Origin: Acidobacteriota bacterium | GTDB lineage: Bacteria; Acidobacteriota; Terriglobia; Acidiferrales; UBA7541 | DNA: 34,343 nt | NCBI GenBank assembly: GCA_003224145.1 | Contig: QHYN01000101.1 | Span: 1-34,343 of the forward strand | Direction: 5' to 3' | Shown here: in pieces, positions 1,281 to 13,333 of the stretch | Numbering within the stretch: the first letter of the stretch is position 1 | Layout: each line of letters opens with the position of its first letter | The notes under the pieces: model-generated | Told to the model about the DNA's origin: nothing | Databases searched by the model: none | What the model saw: only the letters and a program-made list of their open reading frames with translations | Position numbers and translations under genes: made by a program

Positions 1281-1298
1281 TGGTGGGCCCTAGTTGAC
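1281..1298. repeat. Candidate left attachment site (degenerate copy of tRNA-Ile 3' end)
   Basis: 1281-1289 (TGGTGGGCC) is identical to 4785-4793, the CCA end and most of the acceptor stem of the tRNA-Ile gene. Over 18 positions (1281-1298 against 4785-4802) 14 match. The two copies are in the same orientation and bracket the recombinase and its cargo gene, as expected for attL/attR. Nine exact bases could be chance. The support is that joining the two sites keeps the recombinase frame open and yields a tail similar at the protein level (WWALVDD against WWAWVDL). Confidence 0.6.
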
Positions 1299-1506
1299 GA
1301 TTTTAGAACTCTTCCGCTGGGTCAGATCGTCGCAGGGATCCCGCACATTGGAGGGCTCTCGCTGCTCTGATTCTAACGAAGAGCACCGAGCGCCGGTTGT
1401 CGACTGCACCCAAGTGCCGTTCGGAAACGCCGCTGCCGGAAAGCGTGTCCCAGTGCTGTCTTGTCCCGTTAGGCGACTTGCCAGGAGTCACGAATCAGTT
1501 CGCAAG
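1299..1506. other. Element left end, non-coding in the integrated state
   Basis: No gene supported here as integrated. Read in the recombinase frame from the left repeat, 1281-1370 stays open for 29 codons (beginning WWALVDDFRTLPLG) and ends at TGA 1368-1370. This would be the recombinase 3' end in a circular form. From 1371 to 1506 I see nothing assignable. The minus-strand cargo gene ends at 1507. Confidence 0.45.
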
Positions 1507-2481
1507 TCATACTCCGCCGAAATAGATGCCAACGTTCAATTTGGCTGCCCACCGCGCAACGCGAATGAGGTTGTCTAATGCGCGAATTGAGCGGCGTCCT
1601 TTAGCGATTTGCTGAGCACGAAGGATTTCCGAAAGCAATTGGGCGACCTCATCTGGCTGGTAGGTCGCGTCTGATGTGATGTCGCTTAAACGCGATAGCA
1701 GTGGGAAGCCGGGAACGACAAGAGCTGCACCCGCTTCTTCGCCATTACTGCTCTTCCACTCGACTCCCAACTCCTTAAACAATTCCTCGCCCGAAAACAT
1801 GCCAAAGCTCATGCCGACGCTGCGGTCTACCGGCGAGGTCGGTTTAAAGGTCTTTGCATAGGTATCCGGGTCCCGGGCCAAAAACACAGACCACGTTCCA
1901 GGTTCAACGAAATCCTCAAATTCACCTTTTGACTGTGCTAATCCTTCGGCTGTCAGCCAGCGCGGGTCGAACTGTTGGGGGTCACGTTCCGTTAATCCTA
2001 GTCGATTCTCAAGATACGAGCAGAATACCGAAATATCTGCTACTGCTTTTTCGATAAACGTTGCATCGGGTGGCTGTCGGAGGGATTCATTGTGTTTTTC
2101 GATCTCCTCCTTAGACATCGTGTACGGGAGACGGACCATTCCCTGCCCCGTAGGCTTAGCCTTCCAGGCGCCAATGCAATCATCGTGCATTACCCAAGCA
2201 ACTCCGCCTTCGTAATCGTTCACAGCATTCAGCAACGCATGAATTGACTCTAAGGAAGGACGGAACATCGCGAAACAGAACCGCGGGAATTCCCAAGTGT
2301 TCTGTCGCGCCAATTGATAGCTCGAATCGCTCTGATATTCTTCCTGCTTAACGTCAGATATTGATTCTTGATAGCTCCACCATTCCAACGGAGCAAGCTT
2401 GCCGATGACATACGGGAACCACGCACCACCCTTGAGAGTGCTTCGGTTTGTCGGTACACCGTGCTGTTGTTGGAGCGTCAT
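1507..2481 (-). CDS. Unrecognised protein, probable cargo of the integrative element
   Basis: 324 residues from the ATG at 2481, chosen because GAGGG lies seven bases upstream. The frame is open further, to a GTG at 2580. That longer version would add a very hydrophobic stretch (LLPGVLLLRMFVILLSFFLA, then SEGSA), which could be a signal peptide or anchor, so the start is not certain. I do not recognise the family. Visible features are an aromatic-rich N-terminal third (WFPYVIGKLAPLEWWSYQ), a mixed central region (AWVMHDDCIGAWKAKP), acidic segments, and a basic C-terminal helix (AKGRRSIRALDNLIRVARWAAK). There are no zinc, nucleotide-binding or nuclease motifs I can name. It is the only sizeable gene besides the recombinase inside the putative element and runs convergent to the left boundary. 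Its role (defence, resistance, other) cannot be inferred from sequence. Confidence 0.7.
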   Translation of the reverse strand: MTLQQQHGVPTNRSTLKGGAWFPYVIGKLAPLEWWSYQESISDVKQEEYQSDSSYQLARQNTWEFPRFCFAMFRPSLESIHALLNAVNDYEGGVAWVMHDDCIGAWKAKPTGQGMVRLPYTMSKEEIEKHNESLRQPPDATFIEKAVADISVFCSYLENRLGLTERDPQQFDPRWLTAEGLAQSKGEFEDFVEPGTWSVFLARDPDTYAKTFKPTSPVDRSVGMSFGMFSGEELFKELGVEWKSSNGEEAGAALVVPGFPLLSRLSDITSDATYQPDEVAQLLSEILRAQQIAKGRRSIRALDNLIRVARWAAKLNVGIYFGGV

Positions 2482-2744
2482 CGCGCTGCCCTCGCTTGCC
2501 AAGAAAAAGGAAAGTAGAATCACGAACATGCGCAAGAGAAGCACCCCCGGCAAGAGATTTCCGCGAACCAATTGAAGCACAAAACGTCGCGATTACGAAG
2601 AGTTAGCACAGCTCCGCCCGTAGGTAAACGCGGTTACGGACAGGTGTGTTCCGGTACGCCATTTGTCCGGTTAGTCGAGTTGCAAGGACTCGTCTATCTG
2701 CGCTTGGGAGAGTGAGCTATAAGGAGCTACCCTCTCCTCTCCCA

Positions 2745-2817
2745 TGTGGTTCAGCGCGGCAGAACACTGAACCACACGCAGTGTTCTGGTCGAAACATAC
2801 CCTTCGCGTTCTGCCGC
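2745..2817. repeat. Nested, mutually exclusive inverted repeats
   Basis: Three perfect 10-base inverted pairs overlap: TGTGGTTCAG (2745-2754) with CTGAACCACA (2767-2776); CAGAACACTG (2760-2769) with CAGTGTTCTG (2779-2788); and GCGGCAGAAC (2756-2765) with GTTCTGCCGC (2808-2817). They share arms, so only one can fold at a time. This resembles alternative hairpins in a regulatory leader or stacked protein-binding sites. Confidence 0.6.
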
Positions 2818-2891
2818 TCTTCGAGATAAAGGCCCTCCGAGCAACCGAGTAGGCCAGAACGGGGCTGCAAAAAGACCGCAGGCGAAAACCT

Positions 2892-2971
2892 CGATTTGGG
2901 CGGGAGCGACCCGGGTGTTTGTGCGGTTTTGCCGCCCAAAAATGCTCACCGGGTCGCTCCCGCCCAAATCG
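2892..2971. repeat. 23-base perfect inverted repeat with 34-base loop
   Basis: 2892-2914 (starting CGATTTGGGCGGGAGCGACC) is the exact reverse complement of 2949-2971. The stem is GC-rich and no T-run follows on either side, so a simple Rho-independent terminator is unlikely. It could be a recombinase or regulator site, or a strong RNA hairpin in the recombinase leader. Confidence 0.75.
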
Positions 2972-3141
2972 CCTATCGGAAATCGGCAGGGCCCCTTCGG
3001 AACCCCAAAAGCAAAAAAAGTTCAGTTTCCCTGAAATGTTTTTCGGACTTCTTGCCCATTAGTATAAGTAGAGGGGTACTCCTCCAGGCCACCGCTTCGG
3101 CCTTCCTCGCCTCGTAGGAAGCCCACCTCCCAACGTACAAC

Positions 3142-3366
3142 ATGCCGTCACCACTTGACACGCTCGAGGTGTCTCCAACCCAGGGGACCACAGTGGGGAA
3201 GCAGCTCGCTCCCGATGATTTACTCGCATTGCGGGCGATGTTTCTCTTGCTCGACGCATGGGATCGGAACAGCAAGCCCGCGACGCTCGTTGACATGCAG
3301 TTAAAATCGGCGCAAGGTGAGCCACACGCGCAGTCGGTCAGCGCACGCCAACGGAGGGCCAGATGA
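3142..3366 (+). CDS. Small protein translationally coupled to the recombinase
   Basis: 74 residues. Its stop codon overlaps the recombinase start as ATGA (3363-3366), and the recombinase ribosome-binding site (GGAGGGCCAG) lies inside its last codons, a hallmark of translational coupling. The core (LAPDDLLALRAMFLLLDAWDRN) looks like an amphipathic helix and the C-terminus is basic (ARQRRAR). No strong Shine-Dalgarno sequence precedes the ATG at 3142, so an internal start such as 3238 is possible. I do not recognise a named family. The position suggests an accessory or regulatory protein for the recombinase, such as a directionality factor; that is inference only. Confidence 0.55.
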   Translation: MPSPLDTLEVSPTQGTTVGKQLAPDDLLALRAMFLLLDAWDRNSKPATLVDMQLKSAQGEPHAQSVSARQRRAR

Positions 3367-4850
3367 GACAAGCCGTCCTATACGCGAGGGTATCAAGCAA
3401 AGACCAAGAGCGAGAGGGCTTCTCAATCCCCGCGCAACTGAAATTTCTCCGAGAATACGCGCAAACGCACGAGCTCAATGTCCTGCATGAATTTGTGGAT
3501 GTAGAGACGGCCAAGACGACTGGCCGAAAACAATTCGGCGAAATGGTGCGCTTTCTGCGCGATCACAAGACGTGCCGCGTCGTTTTGGTGGAGAAAACCG
3601 ACCGGCTGTATCGGAACTTCCGCGATTGCGTAACGCTGGAAGATCTCGACGTTGAAATCCATCTTCCCAAAGAGGGCCAGGTCATCAGCAAGGACTCGAA
3701 ATCACAAGCCAAACTAGTGCACGGCATTCAGCTTGTGATCGCACGGAACTACATCGAGAATCTGCGGGATGAGGTGCGCAAGGGCATGCGTGAAAAGGCC
3801 GCGCAAGGGATCTACCCGAGCCGGCCACCGTTGGGCTACCGAAACAACAAATTGCTGCGCACGATTGAGGTTGACCCTGACAACGCGCCGATCGCGCAAC
3901 GAATGTTTGAGCTGTACGCGACAGGTTCGTACTCGCTCGCCACCTTGCGTTTGTTTCTCAAAGCCGAGTACGGCAAGGTCCTCTCGAAATGGCACATCGA
4001 AAAACTTCTAAGGAATCCGTTCTATATCGGCACCTACGAATGGGAATGCAAGAGCTACGCGGGCACGCATCCTCCCCTTGTGAGCCCTGAAATATTCTCC
4101 CGCGTGCGCGATGTGTTGAGCGGCAAAGCACGGCCCCGCAAGCAAAAACACGAGTTTGCATTTTCAGGCTTGCTCCGTTGTGCCTACGACAAATGTGCGG
4201 TCACCGCTGAGTTCAAAAAGCAAAAGTACACGTATTACCGTTGCACCGGTTACCGGGGCAAGTGTGACTTGCCCTATTTTCGCGAGGAAGTGATCGCTGA
4301 ACGTCTCGGCCAGGTCTTGCAGGCGATCCGAATCCCGGATGACGTTCTGGTGCAGCTCGAAGAGTCCTTGCTCTCCGATAAAACCCATGAGGAAACGCTC
4401 AAGAAGCGCCAAGCCGAACGGATGGAGCAGCGGCTGACCCAACTGCGCAGGCGGTTGGAGCAGGCTTACGTTGATCGCCTGGACGGAAAAATCACCGAGG
4501 AATTTTGGGAGGCGAAGGCCGCCGAATGGCAAGAGGAGGAGCAATCGCTTCTCGCATCCTTGCGGGAACTTGAACGCGCAGAAAATCCCGAGCGTGCGCT
4601 CGACCGCGTTTGCATTTTAGAACTCGCGAATAAGGCGCATTCTCTGTACGTTACGCAGACTCCACAAGAAAAGGCTAAATTGTTGAGAATGGTGCTATCG
4701 AACTGCGCCGTGGACGCGGTAAGTGTTTATCCCACATACAGAAAGCCCTTCGACATGATCTTCGAACGGGTCAAAACAGGGGAATGGTGGGCCTGGGTGG
4801 ACTTGAACCACCGACCTCGCCCTTATCAGGGGCGCGCTCTAGCCACCTGA
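3363..4850 (+). CDS. Serine recombinase (resolvase/invertase family, large-serine type)
   Basis: 495 residues as integrated. The N-terminal resolvase domain (about 1-140) begins YARVSSKDQEREGFSIPAQ, with Ser11 as the expected nucleophile and the VEKTDRLYRNFRD segment. The recombinase domain (about 150-250) has GYRNN and LRNPFYIGTYEW. A zinc beta-ribbon (about 260-305) contains LRCAYDKCAVTAEF and YYRCTGYRGKCDLPYF, and a charged coiled coil spans about 335-420. Such enzymes cut with a 2-base stagger and join DNA through a phosphoserine intermediate to integrate, excise or invert. The start is fixed by GGAGG upstream and the ATGA overlap with the preceding small gene. The last 21 codons (from WWAWVDLN) are antisense to tRNA-Ile and so are not native recombinase sequence. 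In the excised form a different in-frame tail is predicted. All key motifs are present, so it is likely active. Confidence 0.93.
   Translation: MRQAVLYARVSSKDQEREGFSIPAQLKFLREYAQTHELNVLHEFVDVETAKTTGRKQFGEMVRFLRDHKTCRVVLVEKTDRLYRNFRDCVTLEDLDVEIHLPKEGQVISKDSKSQAKLVHGIQLVIARNYIENLRDEVRKGMREKAAQGIYPSRPPLGYRNNKLLRTIEVDPDNAPIAQRMFELYATGSYSLATLRLFLKAEYGKVLSKWHIEKLLRNPFYIGTYEWECKSYAGTHPPLVSPEIFSRVRDVLSGKARPRKQKHEFAFSGLLRCAYDKCAVTAEFKKQKYTYYRCTGYRGKCDLPYFREEVIAERLGQVLQAIRIPDDVLVQLEESLLSDKTHEETLKKRQAERMEQRLTQLRRRLEQAYVDRLDGKITEEFWEAKAAEWQEEEQSLLASLRELERAENPERALDRVCILELANKAHSLYVTQTPQEKAKLLRMVLSNCAVDAVSVYPTYRKPFDMIFERVKTGEWWAWVDLNHRPRPYQGRALAT
4785..4802. repeat. Candidate right attachment site (tRNA-Ile 3' end)
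   Basis: Same-orientation partner of 1281-1298: nine identical bases (TGGTGGGCC), then five of nine. The exchange point would fall in or near the identical segment, leaving the tRNA intact. Confidence 0.6.
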
Positions 4851-4861
4851 GCTACAGGCCC
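4785..4861 (-). tRNA. tRNA-Ile (GAT anticodon)
   Basis: 77 bases read on the minus strand from 4861 to 4785. The acceptor stem GGGCCTG pairs with CAGGCCC, discriminator A, and CCA is encoded. The D arm is GTAGCTCAGGTGGCTAGAGC, the anticodon stem-loop CGCCCCTGATAAGGGCG carries GAT, and the T arm has GGTTCAAGTCC. It stands alone and not within an rRNA operon in this window. Its 3' end is the boundary of the putative integrative element, and 4785-4850 is also read by the recombinase frame on the opposite strand. Confidence 0.96.
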
Positions 4862-7969: not shown

Positions 7970-8527
7970 CTACCGCGGCCAAAGCCACCCAAACGTCCCC
8001 GCGGTCAGCAAGCCATAAACCAGGCCATCAAAAAAATGTTTGATAACCACGCCCCACGGCTGTCCCGCCCAGATGCCATTCACCAGTTGCCCCACGCCGT
8101 AGGCCATGAACGCCGCCGTGCCCGCCACGCGAAACACCGCCAGATACACTGTCCCTGACGGAAGGGTGCGTCCCGCCAGATAGGCGGTAAAGATGCCGAC
8201 AATCACGCAGTACACAAACCACATCCCAAGAAACTTCGGCATGTTCACCGGGCCCGTCGGAAACACGGTCATCGTCCCGACCGGTCCTTGCTTCTGCTTC
8301 TCCGCAATGGCGGGCGACTTCATGTCCTTGTGCGTGCAAAACGGGAACATATACACTCCCCGTTTCACCCCTGCCTTGCGCAGGACCGCCAGAACATTGT
8401 CTTCATCAGGCAATTGCTTGTAGTCGCTACGGTGATACGGCAGCACCATGTGCATGATGGAGCTGGCCACGAACACGATCACGGCCGAAAGCAGGATCGG
8501 GATCCAAAGAGCGGTGAGAGGAACCAT
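7970..8527 (-). CDS. Conserved-looking membrane protein of unknown function
   Basis: 185 residues from ATG 8527, which has a near-perfect Shine-Dalgarno sequence (AAGGAGG) five bases upstream. Four hydrophobic segments are visible: LWIPILLSAVIVFVASSIMHM, FLGMWFVYCVIVGIFTAYLAG, VYLAVFRVAGTAAFMAYGVG and VVIKHFFDGLVYGLLTAGTF. A soluble loop between the first and second contains YHRSDYKQLPDEDNVLAVLRKAG and FCTHKDMKSP. I do not recognise a named domain. The pattern suggests a small inner-membrane protein. It is first in a possible two-gene unit with the VOC protein. Confidence 0.82.
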   Translation of the reverse strand: MVPLTALWIPILLSAVIVFVASSIMHMVLPYHRSDYKQLPDEDNVLAVLRKAGVKRGVYMFPFCTHKDMKSPAIAEKQKQGPVGTMTVFPTGPVNMPKFLGMWFVYCVIVGIFTAYLAGRTLPSGTVYLAVFRVAGTAAFMAYGVGQLVNGIWAGQPWGVVIKHFFDGLVYGLLTAGTFGWLWPR

Positions 8528-8665
8528 GGCTGCCTCCTTGGCATTTGGGGCTGGGTGCCCGCAATGAATGAGGGGGCTGTTTGCCCCGATTTCCCCCGCG
8601 AGGCTACCCTTCTCGCATGCCGCGGTCAAGCGTCCACTTTGCCGAGTGAACCCCCGAGGACGTCG

Positions 8666-10366
8666 CTACGGCTTCTTCTTTTTGAAAAGGCCAGTGAGGG
8701 CGTCAACCGCATTGCTCGGGTTCGGTTGCGATTTGTCAGCCGCCGTGCTGCTGCCACCCAAGCATCCCAATTTTGATTTGAACATATCGGCCGCGAGGCC
8801 GCCCACGTCCGGAACGAATTTGGGATCGGAGGTCGTCCCCTTGATTTGGAAAGGCACGGTCAAACCGCTCTTGCATCCGCCTCCAGTAACTTTGCCGAGG
8901 AGGTCGCCTAGGCCCCCGGCAGCACCTCCAGTGGAGCTGGCGGCCGCAGATTGAGAACTCGAGAGAGTCGCGACCATTTTGAAATCGAGATCGTTCCTGG
9001 AATCCACGGTGCCGGTGCCGGTGAGATTTCCCAACGACGGCACGATGGCCAGGAAATTGTCGGCCTTGATCCCATCTGGCGCCATCCGGAGATCGCTGGT
9101 GAGTTTTTCGATGTTGAGATCACTGCCGGTCTTGAGGCCGGTGAGCGCGGAAATCGCAGACATTTTTGAACCGAGATCGAAGCCCGCGAGCTTTCCGTTA
9201 AAGAGCCCGACGTTGCCCGTGGTGACGAGCCTATTCGTGGGACCACTGATATTGAGGTCCGCGTTGAGCGCGCCGGCTTGCAACGATGCGCCTTTGGGAA
9301 CATTGATACCAAGCGCCGGGAGAAACGCCTGCAAATCTCTCGCAGGCATGTCCTTGGCATCCAGCTTGATTTTGACGACGGTAGCCTCACCCTCGGTCTT
9401 ATAAGTGCCGCCGAGATGCGCGGCCGCAGCTCCGATTTTCAAGACCGACTGGTTCAGAATCCCGGTATTTTTTCGAAGATCGTATTTGGTATTGAAGTCG
9501 ACAGTAACGGGGACGCTGGCTGGCGAGCCACCCGCAACGAGAAGGGCTTTGGAAAGTTTCGCGTTGCCCCTGGTTTCCGCTGCTCCACCGCGAGAAGCAA
9601 GCGTGCCGTCAAGATCGAGAATGCCTCCCAGACCTGCCGAGGAATCCAGGAAGCCCGTGGAGGCAAGATTCAAAGAACTGATGGTGAGTTTAGCGTTAAG
9701 GGGAGTCAGCGAAGTGTCCGCCTGATCGATGGGACCCGCGTTGCCTTCGAGTTTGAACTTCCCACCGGAAGGAAGGTCCGCGGTGACGGTCACAGGAAAC
9801 TTCGAAGTCATGGAAAAATCGGAGGCCGTGATGTTGAGGTTGTCGTAGGCGCTGCGCTTCTGGGAATTCGTCGCGCCCACGATGATCTTGCCGTTTTTTA
9901 GCACGAATTTCGCAATGGAGAGATCCGCGGCAGCACTCGGGCCGGAGGAAGATTTCTTGGCTTCGGATTTCGTCGAAGCGCCGCCGAGCGAGGAAAAGTT
10001 CCATACGCCGGCGGGATTGTGCAGCAGCGTGACCTGCGGAGTGTCGATGGTCACGCCCGTGATGTTCAGGCTTTTTGAGAAAATCAGCGGCAGGATTTCC
10101 ACGCCGACGTTGAAGGATTTAGCGGTGAGAAAAGGTGAGGAGCTGAATTTGGGATCGTCGCCGATGGAGAGGTTATCGGCGGAGAGCGAACCAGTGATGA
10201 GAGAGAGACTGAGATTCCCAAGCTGCACCTTGCGTCCCAGCGCCGCGGAAGCTTTCTCTTCGATGGTGGGGCGGAACTGATTGACGGGGATCAGGAACGG
10301 AACAATAAGAATCAAAACAATCAAGATACCAACGACGATAAGCACGATGCGGAGCTTGCCCTTCAT
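8666..10366 (-). CDS. AsmA family protein
   Basis: 566 residues. ATG 10366 is chosen because GGAGG precedes it and the protein then begins with a basic n-region and one membrane anchor (IVLIVVGILIVLILIVPFLI). The N-terminal PVNQFRPTIEEKASAALGRKV and ISSLNLASTGF-type repeats, the long beta-rich periplasmic body and the C-terminal GTGTVDSRNDLDFKM / LTVPFQIKGTTSDPKFVPDV are AsmA hallmarks. AsmA-like proteins are now viewed as inner-membrane-anchored, periplasm-spanning proteins related to bridge-like lipid carriers, affecting outer-membrane lipid balance. A Ser/Ala-rich patch (about 485-500) and a Lys-rich end are low complexity. It is divergent from the pseudopilin gene. Confidence 0.9.
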   Translation of the reverse strand: MKGKLRIVLIVVGILIVLILIVPFLIPVNQFRPTIEEKASAALGRKVQLGNLSLSLITGSLSADNLSIGDDPKFSSSPFLTAKSFNVGVEILPLIFSKSLNITGVTIDTPQVTLLHNPAGVWNFSSLGGASTKSEAKKSSSGPSAAADLSIAKFVLKNGKIIVGATNSQKRSAYDNLNITASDFSMTSKFPVTVTADLPSGGKFKLEGNAGPIDQADTSLTPLNAKLTISSLNLASTGFLDSSAGLGGILDLDGTLASRGGAAETRGNAKLSKALLVAGGSPASVPVTVDFNTKYDLRKNTGILNQSVLKIGAAAAHLGGTYKTEGEATVVKIKLDAKDMPARDLQAFLPALGINVPKGASLQAGALNADLNISGPTNRLVTTGNVGLFNGKLAGFDLGSKMSAISALTGLKTGSDLNIEKLTSDLRMAPDGIKADNFLAIVPSLGNLTGTGTVDSRNDLDFKMVATLSSSQSAAASSTGGAAGGLGDLLGKVTGGGCKSGLTVPFQIKGTTSDPKFVPDVGGLAADMFKSKLGCLGGSSTAADKSQPNPSNAVDALTGLFKKKKP

Positions 10367-10570
10367 GACGACCTCCAGAATGGAAGGAATAGCCAATGGC
10401 CAGGACGCGGAAAACGCATGATAGCACAGCAGCAATACGAATAACTGCACCCCTCATACATCTCTCATCAAAATTGAGTTATCCTGAAAGACGGGAGTTT
10501 TTGTGGGCCCCACACGCGGCCGAGTTTGGAGATCCTTCGCCATGGTAGGGGAGCTGTTCCACGGATCCTT

Positions 10571-11041
10571 ATGAGCAAGAGACGCAAGTGTTTGCAGAGT
10601 GGGCTCACGCTTCTGGAACTGATCCTGGCCGCATTCGTTCTTGCCATACTGGCAACTGCTGCGTTGCCCGTGGTGCGCTTCACGATTGTGAGGTCCAAGG
10701 AGGTCGAACTCCATCGGGACCTCCGGGAAATACGCGATGCCATCGACCGCTACAAGGATTATGCGGACCGCAACCTCATTCGCGTCGAAGTCGGCAGCGA
10801 GGGATATCCGCCAGACCTGGAAACGCTGGTCAAAGGAGTGCAGATTGGCGCGAGTTCCGATCGAAAGGTGCGTTTCTTGCGTCGCATTCCCGTGGACCCT
10901 ATGACAGGCCGAGCTGAATGGAATCTGCAAGCCGTTCAGGATGACCCGGATTCAACATCGTGGGCAGGCAAGAACGTGTTCGACGTCCATTCCAAATCTC
11001 AGGCCGCGGCTCTCGACGGAACACGATACGCGGATTGGTAA
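10571..11041 (+). CDS. Type II secretion pseudopilin-like protein (GspG-like)
   Basis: 156 residues from ATG 10571, which places a short basic leader (MSKRRKCLQSG) before the prepilin peptidase site. Cleavage is expected after Gly11, giving LTLLELILAAFVLAILATAA with Glu at position +5 as in functional pilins. The C-terminal half contains GYPPDLETLVKG and RRIPVDPMTG, the layout of GspG-type major pseudopilins, and ends DVHSKSQAAALDGTRYADW. No other secretion genes flank it, so it is an orphan pseudopilin, common in this type of genome. The ribosome-binding site is weak (GGAT). A longer frame from 10526 would push the leader too far upstream. Confidence 0.87.
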   Translation: MSKRRKCLQSGLTLLELILAAFVLAILATAALPVVRFTIVRSKEVELHRDLREIRDAIDRYKDYADRNLIRVEVGSEGYPPDLETLVKGVQIGASSDRKVRFLRRIPVDPMTGRAEWNLQAVQDDPDSTSWAGKNVFDVHSKSQAAALDGTRYADW

Positions 11042-11275
11042 CGACAAGTCCTCGCCTCACACGCTCCGCGTCCCTTCAGGAAAATAGCTTAGCAATCATC
11101 CCCCAGTTCAATTCCATCCGTGCAAATCTTGAAAAAGGGTAGGAACACAAATCAGGTTCTCACGCAGCGGATCCCGCACTGGCAATGTTAGCTGCGGGGA
11201 GTAAAATGAGAAGCCGCCGGAAGACTGGTTCACGTGCCGCAGACGGGTCTGCGAAATCTCGCGTCGAAGGTGAGT

Positions 11276-13333
11276 ATGAGAATAGCATCCGCCTTGCATT
11301 TGTTCGTGCTTTCCCTCGGTTTGACCGCGACCGCCGGTGCGCAGACTCGGGAGGAACCAGCCTTACCCTACTCACCCAGTTTGAACCTCAATTCGATGGA
11401 CAAGTCCATCGATCCCTGCCAGAACTTCTACAAATATGCTTGTGGCCGCTGGCAGAAGGACAATCCCATCCCGGCGGATCAGACTTCGTGGAGCGTTTAC
11501 GGCAAGCTCTATCAGGACAATCTCAACTTTCTGCGCAGCATTCTGGAGCAGGCGGCCCACAGCTCGAGTCCGCGCGACGCCGTGTCACAAAAGATTGGGG
11601 ACTTCTATGCGTCCTGTATCGACGAGGCGGCGCTCGAAAGGAACGGGCTGGGGCCCCTTCAAGCGGAACTGGATGCGATTGCGCAGCTGAAATCCGTGCG
11701 TGAACTGGCTCCGCTGGTGGCCAGGCTGCAAATAACCACAGGCGGGTACAGGACGATTCTCTTCCGGAGCGGTTCCGATCAGGACCCGGACAATTCAGAA
11801 CAAGTGATTGCGTCGCTGGATCAGGGCGGCCTGGGGCTTCCGGACCGGGACTACTACACCAAAGACGACGCAAAATCGAAGGAAACTCGCGAACGCTATC
11901 TCCAGCACGTGCAGAAAGTTTTCGAGCTGCTTGGCGACTATCCCGAAGCCGCAAAGAAAAATGCCGACACCCTGATGCGCATGGAAACGGCGCTCGCCAA
12001 GGCCTCCATGACGCGCGTGGAGCGGCGCGATCCCTACAAGCTGAAGAACAAGATGAAAGTTCCAAGGCTCGAAGAGCTCGTTCCTAATTTCAGCTGGAAG
12101 ACCTACTACAGTGTTTTGCAATACCCCACGATCGAGATCCTGAACATCGGAGACCCGGGGTTCTTCAAAGAAGTGAACGCGGCGCTCGCGAGAGAGTCGC
12201 TGACCGACTGGAAGATATATCTGCGGTTTCATGTGGCGGACAGCTCGGCACAGTTTCTCTCGGAGAAGTTTATTCAGGAGAATTTCGAGTTCTACCGCAA
12301 ATATTTGCGCGGTGCCAAGGAGCGGGAGCCTCAATGGAAGCGCTGCGTCAAGTTCACCGACTACATGCTGGGCGAAGCGCTGGGCCAGGCGTACGTGCGC
12401 AGTGTGTTCGCACCCCACCTCAAACAAAGCACACTGGACATGGTGCGCGGCATCGAAGACGCCATGGCAAAGCGGATTCAGGCTCTGGACTGGATGAGCC
12501 CGGAGACAAAACAGCAAGCTCTCACCAAGCTCCGCGGCATTCGCAACAAAATCGGCTATCCCGACCGGTGGCGGGACTACAGCTCGGTGAAAATTGTACG
12601 CGACGAATTTCTTGCAAACGTGCAGCAGGCCACCGCGTTTGAGCACCGCCGGGAGATCACCAAGATCGGTAAGCCCGTAGACCACGGCGAATGGGAAATC
12701 TCTCCGGCCACCGTAGACGCCTACTACAATCCGCAGATGAACGACATCAATTTTCCCGCGGGCGTTCTGCAGCCTCCTCTGTACGATGCCAAGTTGGACG
12801 ACGCGCCAAACTACGGCGACACCGGTGGCACCATCGGTCACGAATTGACGCACGGTTTTGACGACGAGGGCAGCCAGTTCGACGCCCAGGGCAATTTGAA
12901 AAATTGGTGGACCAAAGAGGACCGCGAAAAGTTTGACGCGCGCACCAAATGCGTCAGCGACCAATATTCGCAGTACGTCGTGGTGGATGACGTGCACATC
13001 AACGGGCAGCTGACGATGGGAGAGGATGTAGCGGACCTGGGCGGCGAGATTCTTGCTTACATCGCTTGGAAGGATGCCACCAAGGACAAAAATCTCCAGC
13101 CCGTCGACGGGCTCACGCCGGAACAGCGCTTCTTCATTGGCTTCGCGCAGTGGGATTGCGCCAACGAACGACCCGAAGACCTTCGCGTGCGCGCCCAGAC
13201 CGACCCGCATTCACCCGCGAAGTACCGCATCAACGGCGTACTAGTGAACATGCCGGAATTTGCAAAAGCCTTTTCCTGTAAAGCTGGCCAACCCATGGTG
13301 AAGCCGGCGGACAAGGTGTGCCGCGTCTGGTAG
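11276..13333 (+). CDS. Exported M13 family zinc metallopeptidase (neprilysin/PepO-like)
   Basis: 685 residues. ATG 11276 has GAAGGTGA upstream and opens a signal peptide (MRIASALHLFVLSLGLTATA, then GAQ). The N-terminal M13 region has SIDPCQNFYKYACGRWQ. The catalytic motif HELTH is at 522-526 in GHELTHGFDDEGSQFD. The third zinc ligand is Glu583 in GEDVADLGG, where most relatives have GENxADLGG. The substrate-binding VNAYYNP-like motif appears as VDAYYNPQMNDINFPAG, and the end is VCRVW, the usual M13 terminus. The enzyme is expected to cleave peptides in the periplasm. It is a complete, full-length member and apparently monocistronic. A frame from 11234 would add a pre-signal stretch and is less likely. 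Confidence 0.95.
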   Translation: MRIASALHLFVLSLGLTATAGAQTREEPALPYSPSLNLNSMDKSIDPCQNFYKYACGRWQKDNPIPADQTSWSVYGKLYQDNLNFLRSILEQAAHSSSPRDAVSQKIGDFYASCIDEAALERNGLGPLQAELDAIAQLKSVRELAPLVARLQITTGGYRTILFRSGSDQDPDNSEQVIASLDQGGLGLPDRDYYTKDDAKSKETRERYLQHVQKVFELLGDYPEAAKKNADTLMRMETALAKASMTRVERRDPYKLKNKMKVPRLEELVPNFSWKTYYSVLQYPTIEILNIGDPGFFKEVNAALARESLTDWKIYLRFHVADSSAQFLSEKFIQENFEFYRKYLRGAKEREPQWKRCVKFTDYMLGEALGQAYVRSVFAPHLKQSTLDMVRGIEDAMAKRIQALDWMSPETKQQALTKLRGIRNKIGYPDRWRDYSSVKIVRDEFLANVQQATAFEHRREITKIGKPVDHGEWEISPATVDAYYNPQMNDINFPAGVLQPPLYDAKLDDAPNYGDTGGTIGHELTHGFDDEGSQFDAQGNLKNWWTKEDREKFDARTKCVSDQYSQYVVVDDVHINGQLTMGEDVADLGGEILAYIAWKDATKDKNLQPVDGLTPEQRFFIGFAQWDCANERPEDLRVRAQTDPHSPAKYRINGVLVNMPEFAKAFSCKAGQPMVKPADKVCRVW

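Follow-up and report, generated by a model that had tools for sequence, protein, structure and literature searches.

The window analysed here is a 34,343-nucleotide (nt) contig of a soil-dwelling Acidobacteriota bacterium (QHYN01000101.1, assembly GCA_003224145.1). Its left part carries a putative 3.5-kb integrative element that abuts a tRNA-Ile gene and encodes a large serine recombinase (LSR), whose open reading frame (ORF) runs into the tRNA sequence. The features central to the argument are listed first; papers cited by PMC accession are represented by excerpts of their text.

1281..1289, + strand: left copy of the repeat TGGTGGGCC, at the left element end, where homology with relatives starts.
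1281..1313, + strand: P' arm, the element's half of attP, common to 90 arms, with TTAGAAC at 1303-1309.
1281..1370, + strand: coding stretch for the native tail of the circular form, WWALVDDFRTLPLGQIVAGIPHIGGLSLL plus TGA, read from the sequence.
3363..4850, + strand: LSR ORF, 495 amino acids (aa) in the integrated form, from its domains and the ORF table.
4755..4784, + strand: P arm, the gene-side half of attP within the recombinase gene, its extent taken from LSR half-site length and its motif position ambiguous.
4785..4861, - strand: tRNA-Ile (GAT), the occupied target gene, recognised from the sequence.
4785..4793, + strand: right copy of TGGTGGGCC, holding the crossover, the exact dinucleotide not being fixed.
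4802..4808, + strand: CTTGAAC, the T-loop of tRNA-Ile read antisense, which would act as zinc-ribbon motif of the target half-site under the rule of PMC3783163; its counterpart in the P' arm is 5 bp further from the crossover.

The recombinase ORF crosses TGGTGGGCC on entering the antisense strand of tRNA-Ile, the complement of the tRNA's 3' CCA serving as the TGG codon of Trp475. The 66 nt of the ORF beyond 4784 comprise 21 codons and a stop, and the protein ends in WWAWVDLNHRPRPYQGRALAT. The two copies of the repeat are spaced by 3504 bp, and joining 4784 to 1281, as in an excised circle, keeps the recombinase frame for 29 codons up to the TGA at 1368-1370. An earlier sequence-only reading of this DNA had reported the overlap, the second repeat copy and the in-frame junction, and its coordinates hold on all three points. 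Pfam searches of the protein returned PF00239 (Resolvase), PF07508 (Recombinase) and PF13408 (zinc ribbon), all above cut-offs, which is the domain set that identifies an LSR. The AlphaFold model appears to contain the zinc-ribbon-inserted coiled coil of LSRs as well, long helices (residues 326-373 and 379-405) following the zinc ribbon.

We interpret the locus, with a probability of about 0.85, as a 3.5-kb integrative element whose recombinase has its attP straddling the 3' end of its own gene and uses the 3' end of a tRNA gene as target half-site. One arm of attP would be the last part of the recombinase gene, the crossover would fall in TGGTGGGCC, and the next ~30 bp would form the P' arm. 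The target half-site would consist of the acceptor end of the tRNA gene, with its CCA, and the near-universal T-loop. Read antisense, this loop gives T(C/T)GAAC, which would take the place of the zinc-ribbon motif in attB, 5 bp closer to the crossover than the motif of P'. Recombination would keep the tRNA intact while exchanging the recombinase tail for a peptide encoded by antisense tRNA.

Members of the recombinase family were detected in 47 of 396 genomes of the phylum (E <= 1e-20, own genome included), at 16 genome-contig loci and on 25 IMG/VR contigs; the window's own assembly gave one match to its recombinase. Plasmid and phage collections yielded distant relatives only (top-ranked at 30.7% and 30.3% identity). 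A tRNA begins within 140 nt of 32 out of 53 distinct recombinase 3' ends, a set that contains several truncated genes; the 32 include the window itself and are not independent, many being of common ancestry. The ORF enters the tRNA in phase in 30 of the 32, with the complement of CCA as a Trp codon, through linkers of 30 nt (20 ends), 75 nt (8), 96 nt (1) or 108 nt (1). The targets are tRNA-Pro (14), Gln (8), Asn (3), Arg (3), Asp (2), Ala (1) and Ile (1, the window). On these sequences, the tRNA overlap is a trait of the family. Wherever tails of the WWAWVDL type were encountered, whose coincidence with a tRNA the sequence-only reading had proposed to check, they adjoined a tRNA or a piece of antisense tRNA.

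The left end of the predicted element is defined by comparison. In another acidobacterial genome (L012), homology with the element begins exactly at 1281, that is, at the repeat; a second relative, L003, has the same P' arm preceded by unrelated DNA at a site that is not a tRNA. The L003 element (8128-11445; recombinase 93% identical, ends sharing only GGGCC) has its right end at a putative ROK-kinase-like gene, ~12 bp from that gene's 3' terminus. A 28-position pattern for the P' arm matched in 52 of 299 genomes of the class and nowhere when reversed, conservation at the fixed positions being built into such a search. From most of the matching places 90 distinct arms were compared, including those of the window, L003 (positioned by hand, and lacking TGG), L012, L131 and L132. 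The sequence they have in common reaches about position 33 and then falls to near background, a boundary not built in by the pattern. The flanks to the left of TGG are unrelated, apart from an A/G-rich last 8 bases.

Related recombinases with exchanged tails were found among viral contigs. The L163 and L162 proteins, whose bodies are 95% identical, agree up to NLKNL and then continue as VSACRSSNLF and EMAGVEPAS, respectively. The latter looks by eye like an antisense tRNA peptide; ARAGORN called no tRNA beside it, the contig ending nearby. Native and tRNA-type tails also distinguish L164, L165 and L168 from L167 (84%), L331 from L330 (82%) and, more distantly, L359 from L356 (61%); a tRNA-Ala was called for L357, a near copy of L356. 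The tails of L158, L160 and L161 fit neither type cleanly. The L005 contig is collinear in stretches with the prophage of G447 (67-91% identity), and homology on the recombinase side stops at the crossover. Reading L005 as a closed circle was given up: its contig (G444:C30) lacks a terminal repeat and, past the crossover, has 1,009 bp without a counterpart in contigs G445 and G447, which leaves it attP-like by motif only. That the circular and the integrated form have different tails is borne out by these comparisons, and the swap is real.

Five comparisons in relatives revealed unoccupied sites that run into a tRNA or tRNA fragment. The clearest pairs L292, an insertion in G094, with L187 in G163: the left flanks are identical over 400/400 positions and the right flanks over 1498/1500. 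In L187 the bases left of the insertion point lead directly into tRNA-Pro, and the L292 insert measures 4887 bp, placed precisely at TGG. Weaker pairs are L247/L075 (tRNA-Ile, 68-nt alignment, 87%), L277/L242 (tRNA-Arg, 408 nt, 86%), L269/L270 (tRNA-Arg fragment, 209 nt, 88%, within one genome) and L293/L188 (124 nt, 81%). Repeated flanks in G265 likewise lead into tRNA-Pro. The sequence-only reading had named the repeat as the crossover site and had held that empty sites breaking elsewhere would refute it. Homology with relatives starts at the repeat and their empty sites break there, in support of that assignment, with the exchanged bases not fixed and with no such site obtained for the window's own element. 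The window copy is presumably mobile.

The length of the 9-nt repeat is not significant in itself because 29 families of direct repeats of at least 9 nt occur in the same 3.9 kb, TGGTGGGCC being family D2; its weight derives from its position and from the evidence of relatives. Such chance repeats, together with the many partial copies at these tRNAs, would suit a degenerate relic in which a stop codon was lost, the recombinase gene ran into the tRNA and the repeat arose by coincidence. This account is contradicted by the relatives, by the architecture common to the 30 in-phase ends, the precise unoccupied sites and the shared P' arm, and we regard it as very improbable.

The position of the T-loop supplies a further argument for this interpretation. 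Of the 90 P' arms, 81 have the motif T(T/C)(A/C)GAAC with its first base at position 23; in antisense tRNAs T(C/T)GAAC starts at 19 in 32/32 ends, the exact 7-mer TTCGAAC starting at 18 in 24; GAAC therefore lies 5 bp nearer the crossover in the tRNA than in the P' arm. The viral pairs L163/L162 and L164/L167 repeat this offset: their native tails have the motif at 20, their tRNA tails at 15. For a Listeria integrase, the zinc-ribbon motif is reported to be 5 bp closer to the centre in attB than in attP, within 25-bp half-sites (excerpt of PMC3783163). Because the GAAC shift matches that rule, on one side of the site, we infer by analogy that the T-loop acts as the zinc-ribbon motif of attB; a limited literature search did not find this reading in print. 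The family would then be one of serine integrases that read the T-loop and CCA end and carry attP inside their own 3' end. As to the exchanged bases, Pro-type elements with both ends available share at least positions 1-7 of the repeat and L003 only positions 5-9, so that positions 5-7, which fit both, are probably those involved. A crossover at the GG of TGG, hinted at by a gene-side TTCGAA in six ends, was dropped: the L003 ends share only GGGCC, and a second gene-side motif gives a different centre.

A number of observations weigh against the integrative-element interpretation or limit its reach. The conservation of P' arms at fixed positions is a product of their selection by pattern. Two ends are out of phase with their tRNA (L021, at 136 nt, and L105, at 32 nt in a broken gene), and L146, L162 and L167 read theirs in another frame. 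No one mirror motif marks the gene-side arm: 6/32 ends have an exact TTCGAA at one place and 14/32 have TTT(C/G)G at another, so that the centre is not fixed. The sequence shared by the L003 ends does not include TGG. The L292 insertion lacks a recombinase where it meets the tRNA, and on its left the flank resembles a decayed recombinase end. Most arms used as queries returned copies of their own locus only, or nothing usable as an unoccupied site. Neither a circle nor an attP junction was observed for the window copy, and comparison with three GMC oxidoreductase/tRNA-Ile loci (L068, L053 and L061) did not reveal its exact empty site, their spacers failing to align with that of the window.

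One of these loci, L068 (G000:C303), is a second GMC/tRNA-Ile locus in the same assembly, with a GMC protein 95% identical and no element; alignment of its spacer with the left flank of the window goes no further than about base 1131. It may represent either a second strain or a duplication.

The consequences of the exchange for the enzyme are less clear-cut. We read the tRNA-derived tail as a tolerated by-product, disordered and of a length set by the tRNA. It varies from three residues upwards, the shortest forms being WWS* and WLR*; in 9 of 32 ends a stop occurs within 11 codons, and residues 480-495 of the window protein are predicted to be disordered (AlphaFold pLDDT <50). On the native side, a relaxed codon pattern retained GACGAT in 58 of 59 matches, with one match for the reversed control. 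The first ~11 native-tail codons, DDFRT included, are thus constrained as DNA, and strong protein-level conservation of DDFRT was abandoned as a claim; much of the native-tail conservation appears to be at the DNA level. These observations favour a neutral swap, to which we give about an even chance: attP would simply be packed against the gene end, both tails would be dispensable and the open frame would be a by-product of the half-site. The end of the common sequence near position 33 agrees with this, and the excerpts of PMC3146451 suggest a similar, trivial explanation by the DsiB authors for their own system (see below). Also in its favour, a third-position test on arms of the window's clade picked by DNA gave no coding signal (share 0.38, p = 0.20, not significant), no different from control arms of G265 that lack a recombinase (0.40, p = 0.19).

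The neutral swap is harder to reconcile with the phase held constant across four linker lengths and with the constraint on native tails of a viral sister clade beyond the half-site. In two viral pairs pN/pS there is 0.29 and 0.21, near gene-body values (Fisher p 0.003-0.006 summed and 0.03-0.09 singly, depending on rounding). The native tail may therefore add something to the circular form, conceivably as a directionality switch in which the native-tailed enzyme of the circle carries out attP x attB recombination and the tRNA-tailed enzyme performs only excision, if any. The L164 native tail is predicted to form helices (488-503 and 507-516; block pLDDT 64, 82, 70 and 61 from residue 481). The window's tail family varies by codon position as 0.19, 0.13 and 0.42, and its six closest tails have an in-frame pN/pS of 0.30, compared with 4.19 and 0.75 for the two remaining frames; all 15 give 0.49 against 1.01 and 1.28, these 15 having been chosen by protein similarity, which detracts from their value as evidence for a switch. 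P' arms are open over 11 codons in the recombinase frame in 89/89 cases against 19/89 and 37/89 in the other frames, a result partly built in by the pattern. Other viral pairs are weaker (L331/L169, 0.84; L170/L166, 0.74; L170/L172, 0.58), and L164/L165 has too few changes. Pro-type arms have no common tail beyond the half-site, and the DNA-picked set behaved like its recombinase-less control, although frame 0 scored best in 23 of 48 pairs. Serine integrases are, moreover, already made directional by site geometry and recombination directionality factors, according to the excerpt of PMC3783163. The evidence for a functional native tail is thus modest, such a function being plausible, and a directionality switch is unproven and in our estimation unlikely. 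The suggestion in the sequence-only reading that the tail could affect activity or directionality draws modest support from the viral native tails and none from the unbiased test in the window's own clade.

The exchange of a recombinase tail has a published precedent and is not new in kind. In the ssrA islands of Dehalococcoides (McMurdie 2011; excerpts of PMC3146451), the 3' end of dsiB always overlaps attL and its stop codon lies outside the island, even where it overlaps antisense ssrA; the authors suggested that full function of dsiB may be confined to the circle. Both systems share the overlap of the recombinase gene with att at its 3' end, and tandem islands, some without integration modules. 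They differ in target, ssrA with a 20-bp repeat there and many tRNA genes with mostly 7-10 shared bases here, tRNA-Ile in the window and others in relatives. They differ also in content: the six-gene module with a second recombinase, DsiA, has no equivalent in the 3.5-kb element, which has one recombinase. The Listeria A118-type LSR (PMC3783163, as excerpted) shows the same 5-bp shift, and its LI motif TTTAGTATC resembles TTTAGAAC, but the text available describes neither a tRNA target nor an overlap of attP with the gene end. Archaeal SSV-type suicidal integrases (PMC8371274, in part) likewise have attP in the integrase gene and are altered by integration; they are tyrosine recombinases whose gene is split, whereas the protein here has serine recombinase domains and changes only in its C-terminal tail. 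By analogy, the window system may be regarded as a milder, serine-type bacterial counterpart. Excerpts on Ralstonia phages (PMC3816273) describe a loss of 26 aa from the C-terminus of phiRSS0 ORF13 on integration, although that protein is a possible regulator and the phage is integrated by host XerCD, and a resolvase-like serine recombinase of phiRSM at a tRNA-Ser 3' end, with no recombinase tail swap reported there. From the part of the phage JC1 paper available, a related prophage's integrase gene overlaps rimO, and the attP of JC1 lies upstream of the recombinase gene. As far as the literature searched tells, the tRNA-wide family, the T-loop with its 5-bp geometry and the observed tail pairs are new.

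Besides the recombinase, the element has only two gene-like ORFs, neither of known family.

1507..2580, - strand: ORF of 357 aa, without Pfam or NCBIfam family.
3142..3366, + strand: small ORF of 74 aa, which shares 4 nt (ATGA) with the start of the recombinase gene and is kept in close relatives.

Close relatives retain the motif LAPDDLLALRxxFLLLDxWDRN of the 74-aa ORF, and inspection by eye suggests a loose version of it in L131 and L134; as a guess, the ORF product is a candidate accessory or directionality protein. Upstream of the recombinase lies a perfect 23-nt inverted repeat (2892-2914 and 2949-2971) with a 34-nt loop; matching inverted stretches are present in L002, L003 and L012. The tRNA-Ile gene (4785-4861; in relatives G413:C37, G405:C515 and G411:C75) is a crowded integration hot spot, and many copies of its 3' part, ~45-50 nt long, are scattered across the genus, a length that presumably points to tyrosine integrases with a crossover close to the anticodon. 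At L300-L304 (G265), L289, L305 and L292, P' arms delimit short stretches and tandem arrays in which no recombinase was found. Arm spacings in G265 are about 1.1-5.3 kb, and the L305 and L289 arms lie 94 and 603 bp from a tRNA. Such stretches are perhaps mobilised in trans.

The boldest extension of these findings, that a widespread clade of bacterial and viral LSRs uses the T-loop and CCA end as attB and that each integration, by swapping the tail, leaves in the protein a memory of the circular or integrated state that biases direction, seems to us doubtful. If it is true, changes at a few acceptor-end positions would let the clade pass from one tRNA gene to another. Annotation of recombinases with DSNxRP-like ends calls for caution, since such an end may be antisense tRNA and not a conserved domain. 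The integrative-element interpretation would offer a simple account of how one family of serine integrases reaches many tRNA genes, and its site pairs, readable from sequence, would be a ready source. It would also make the old remark on DsiB testable, by comparing the behaviour of an integrase before and after its tail is rewritten.

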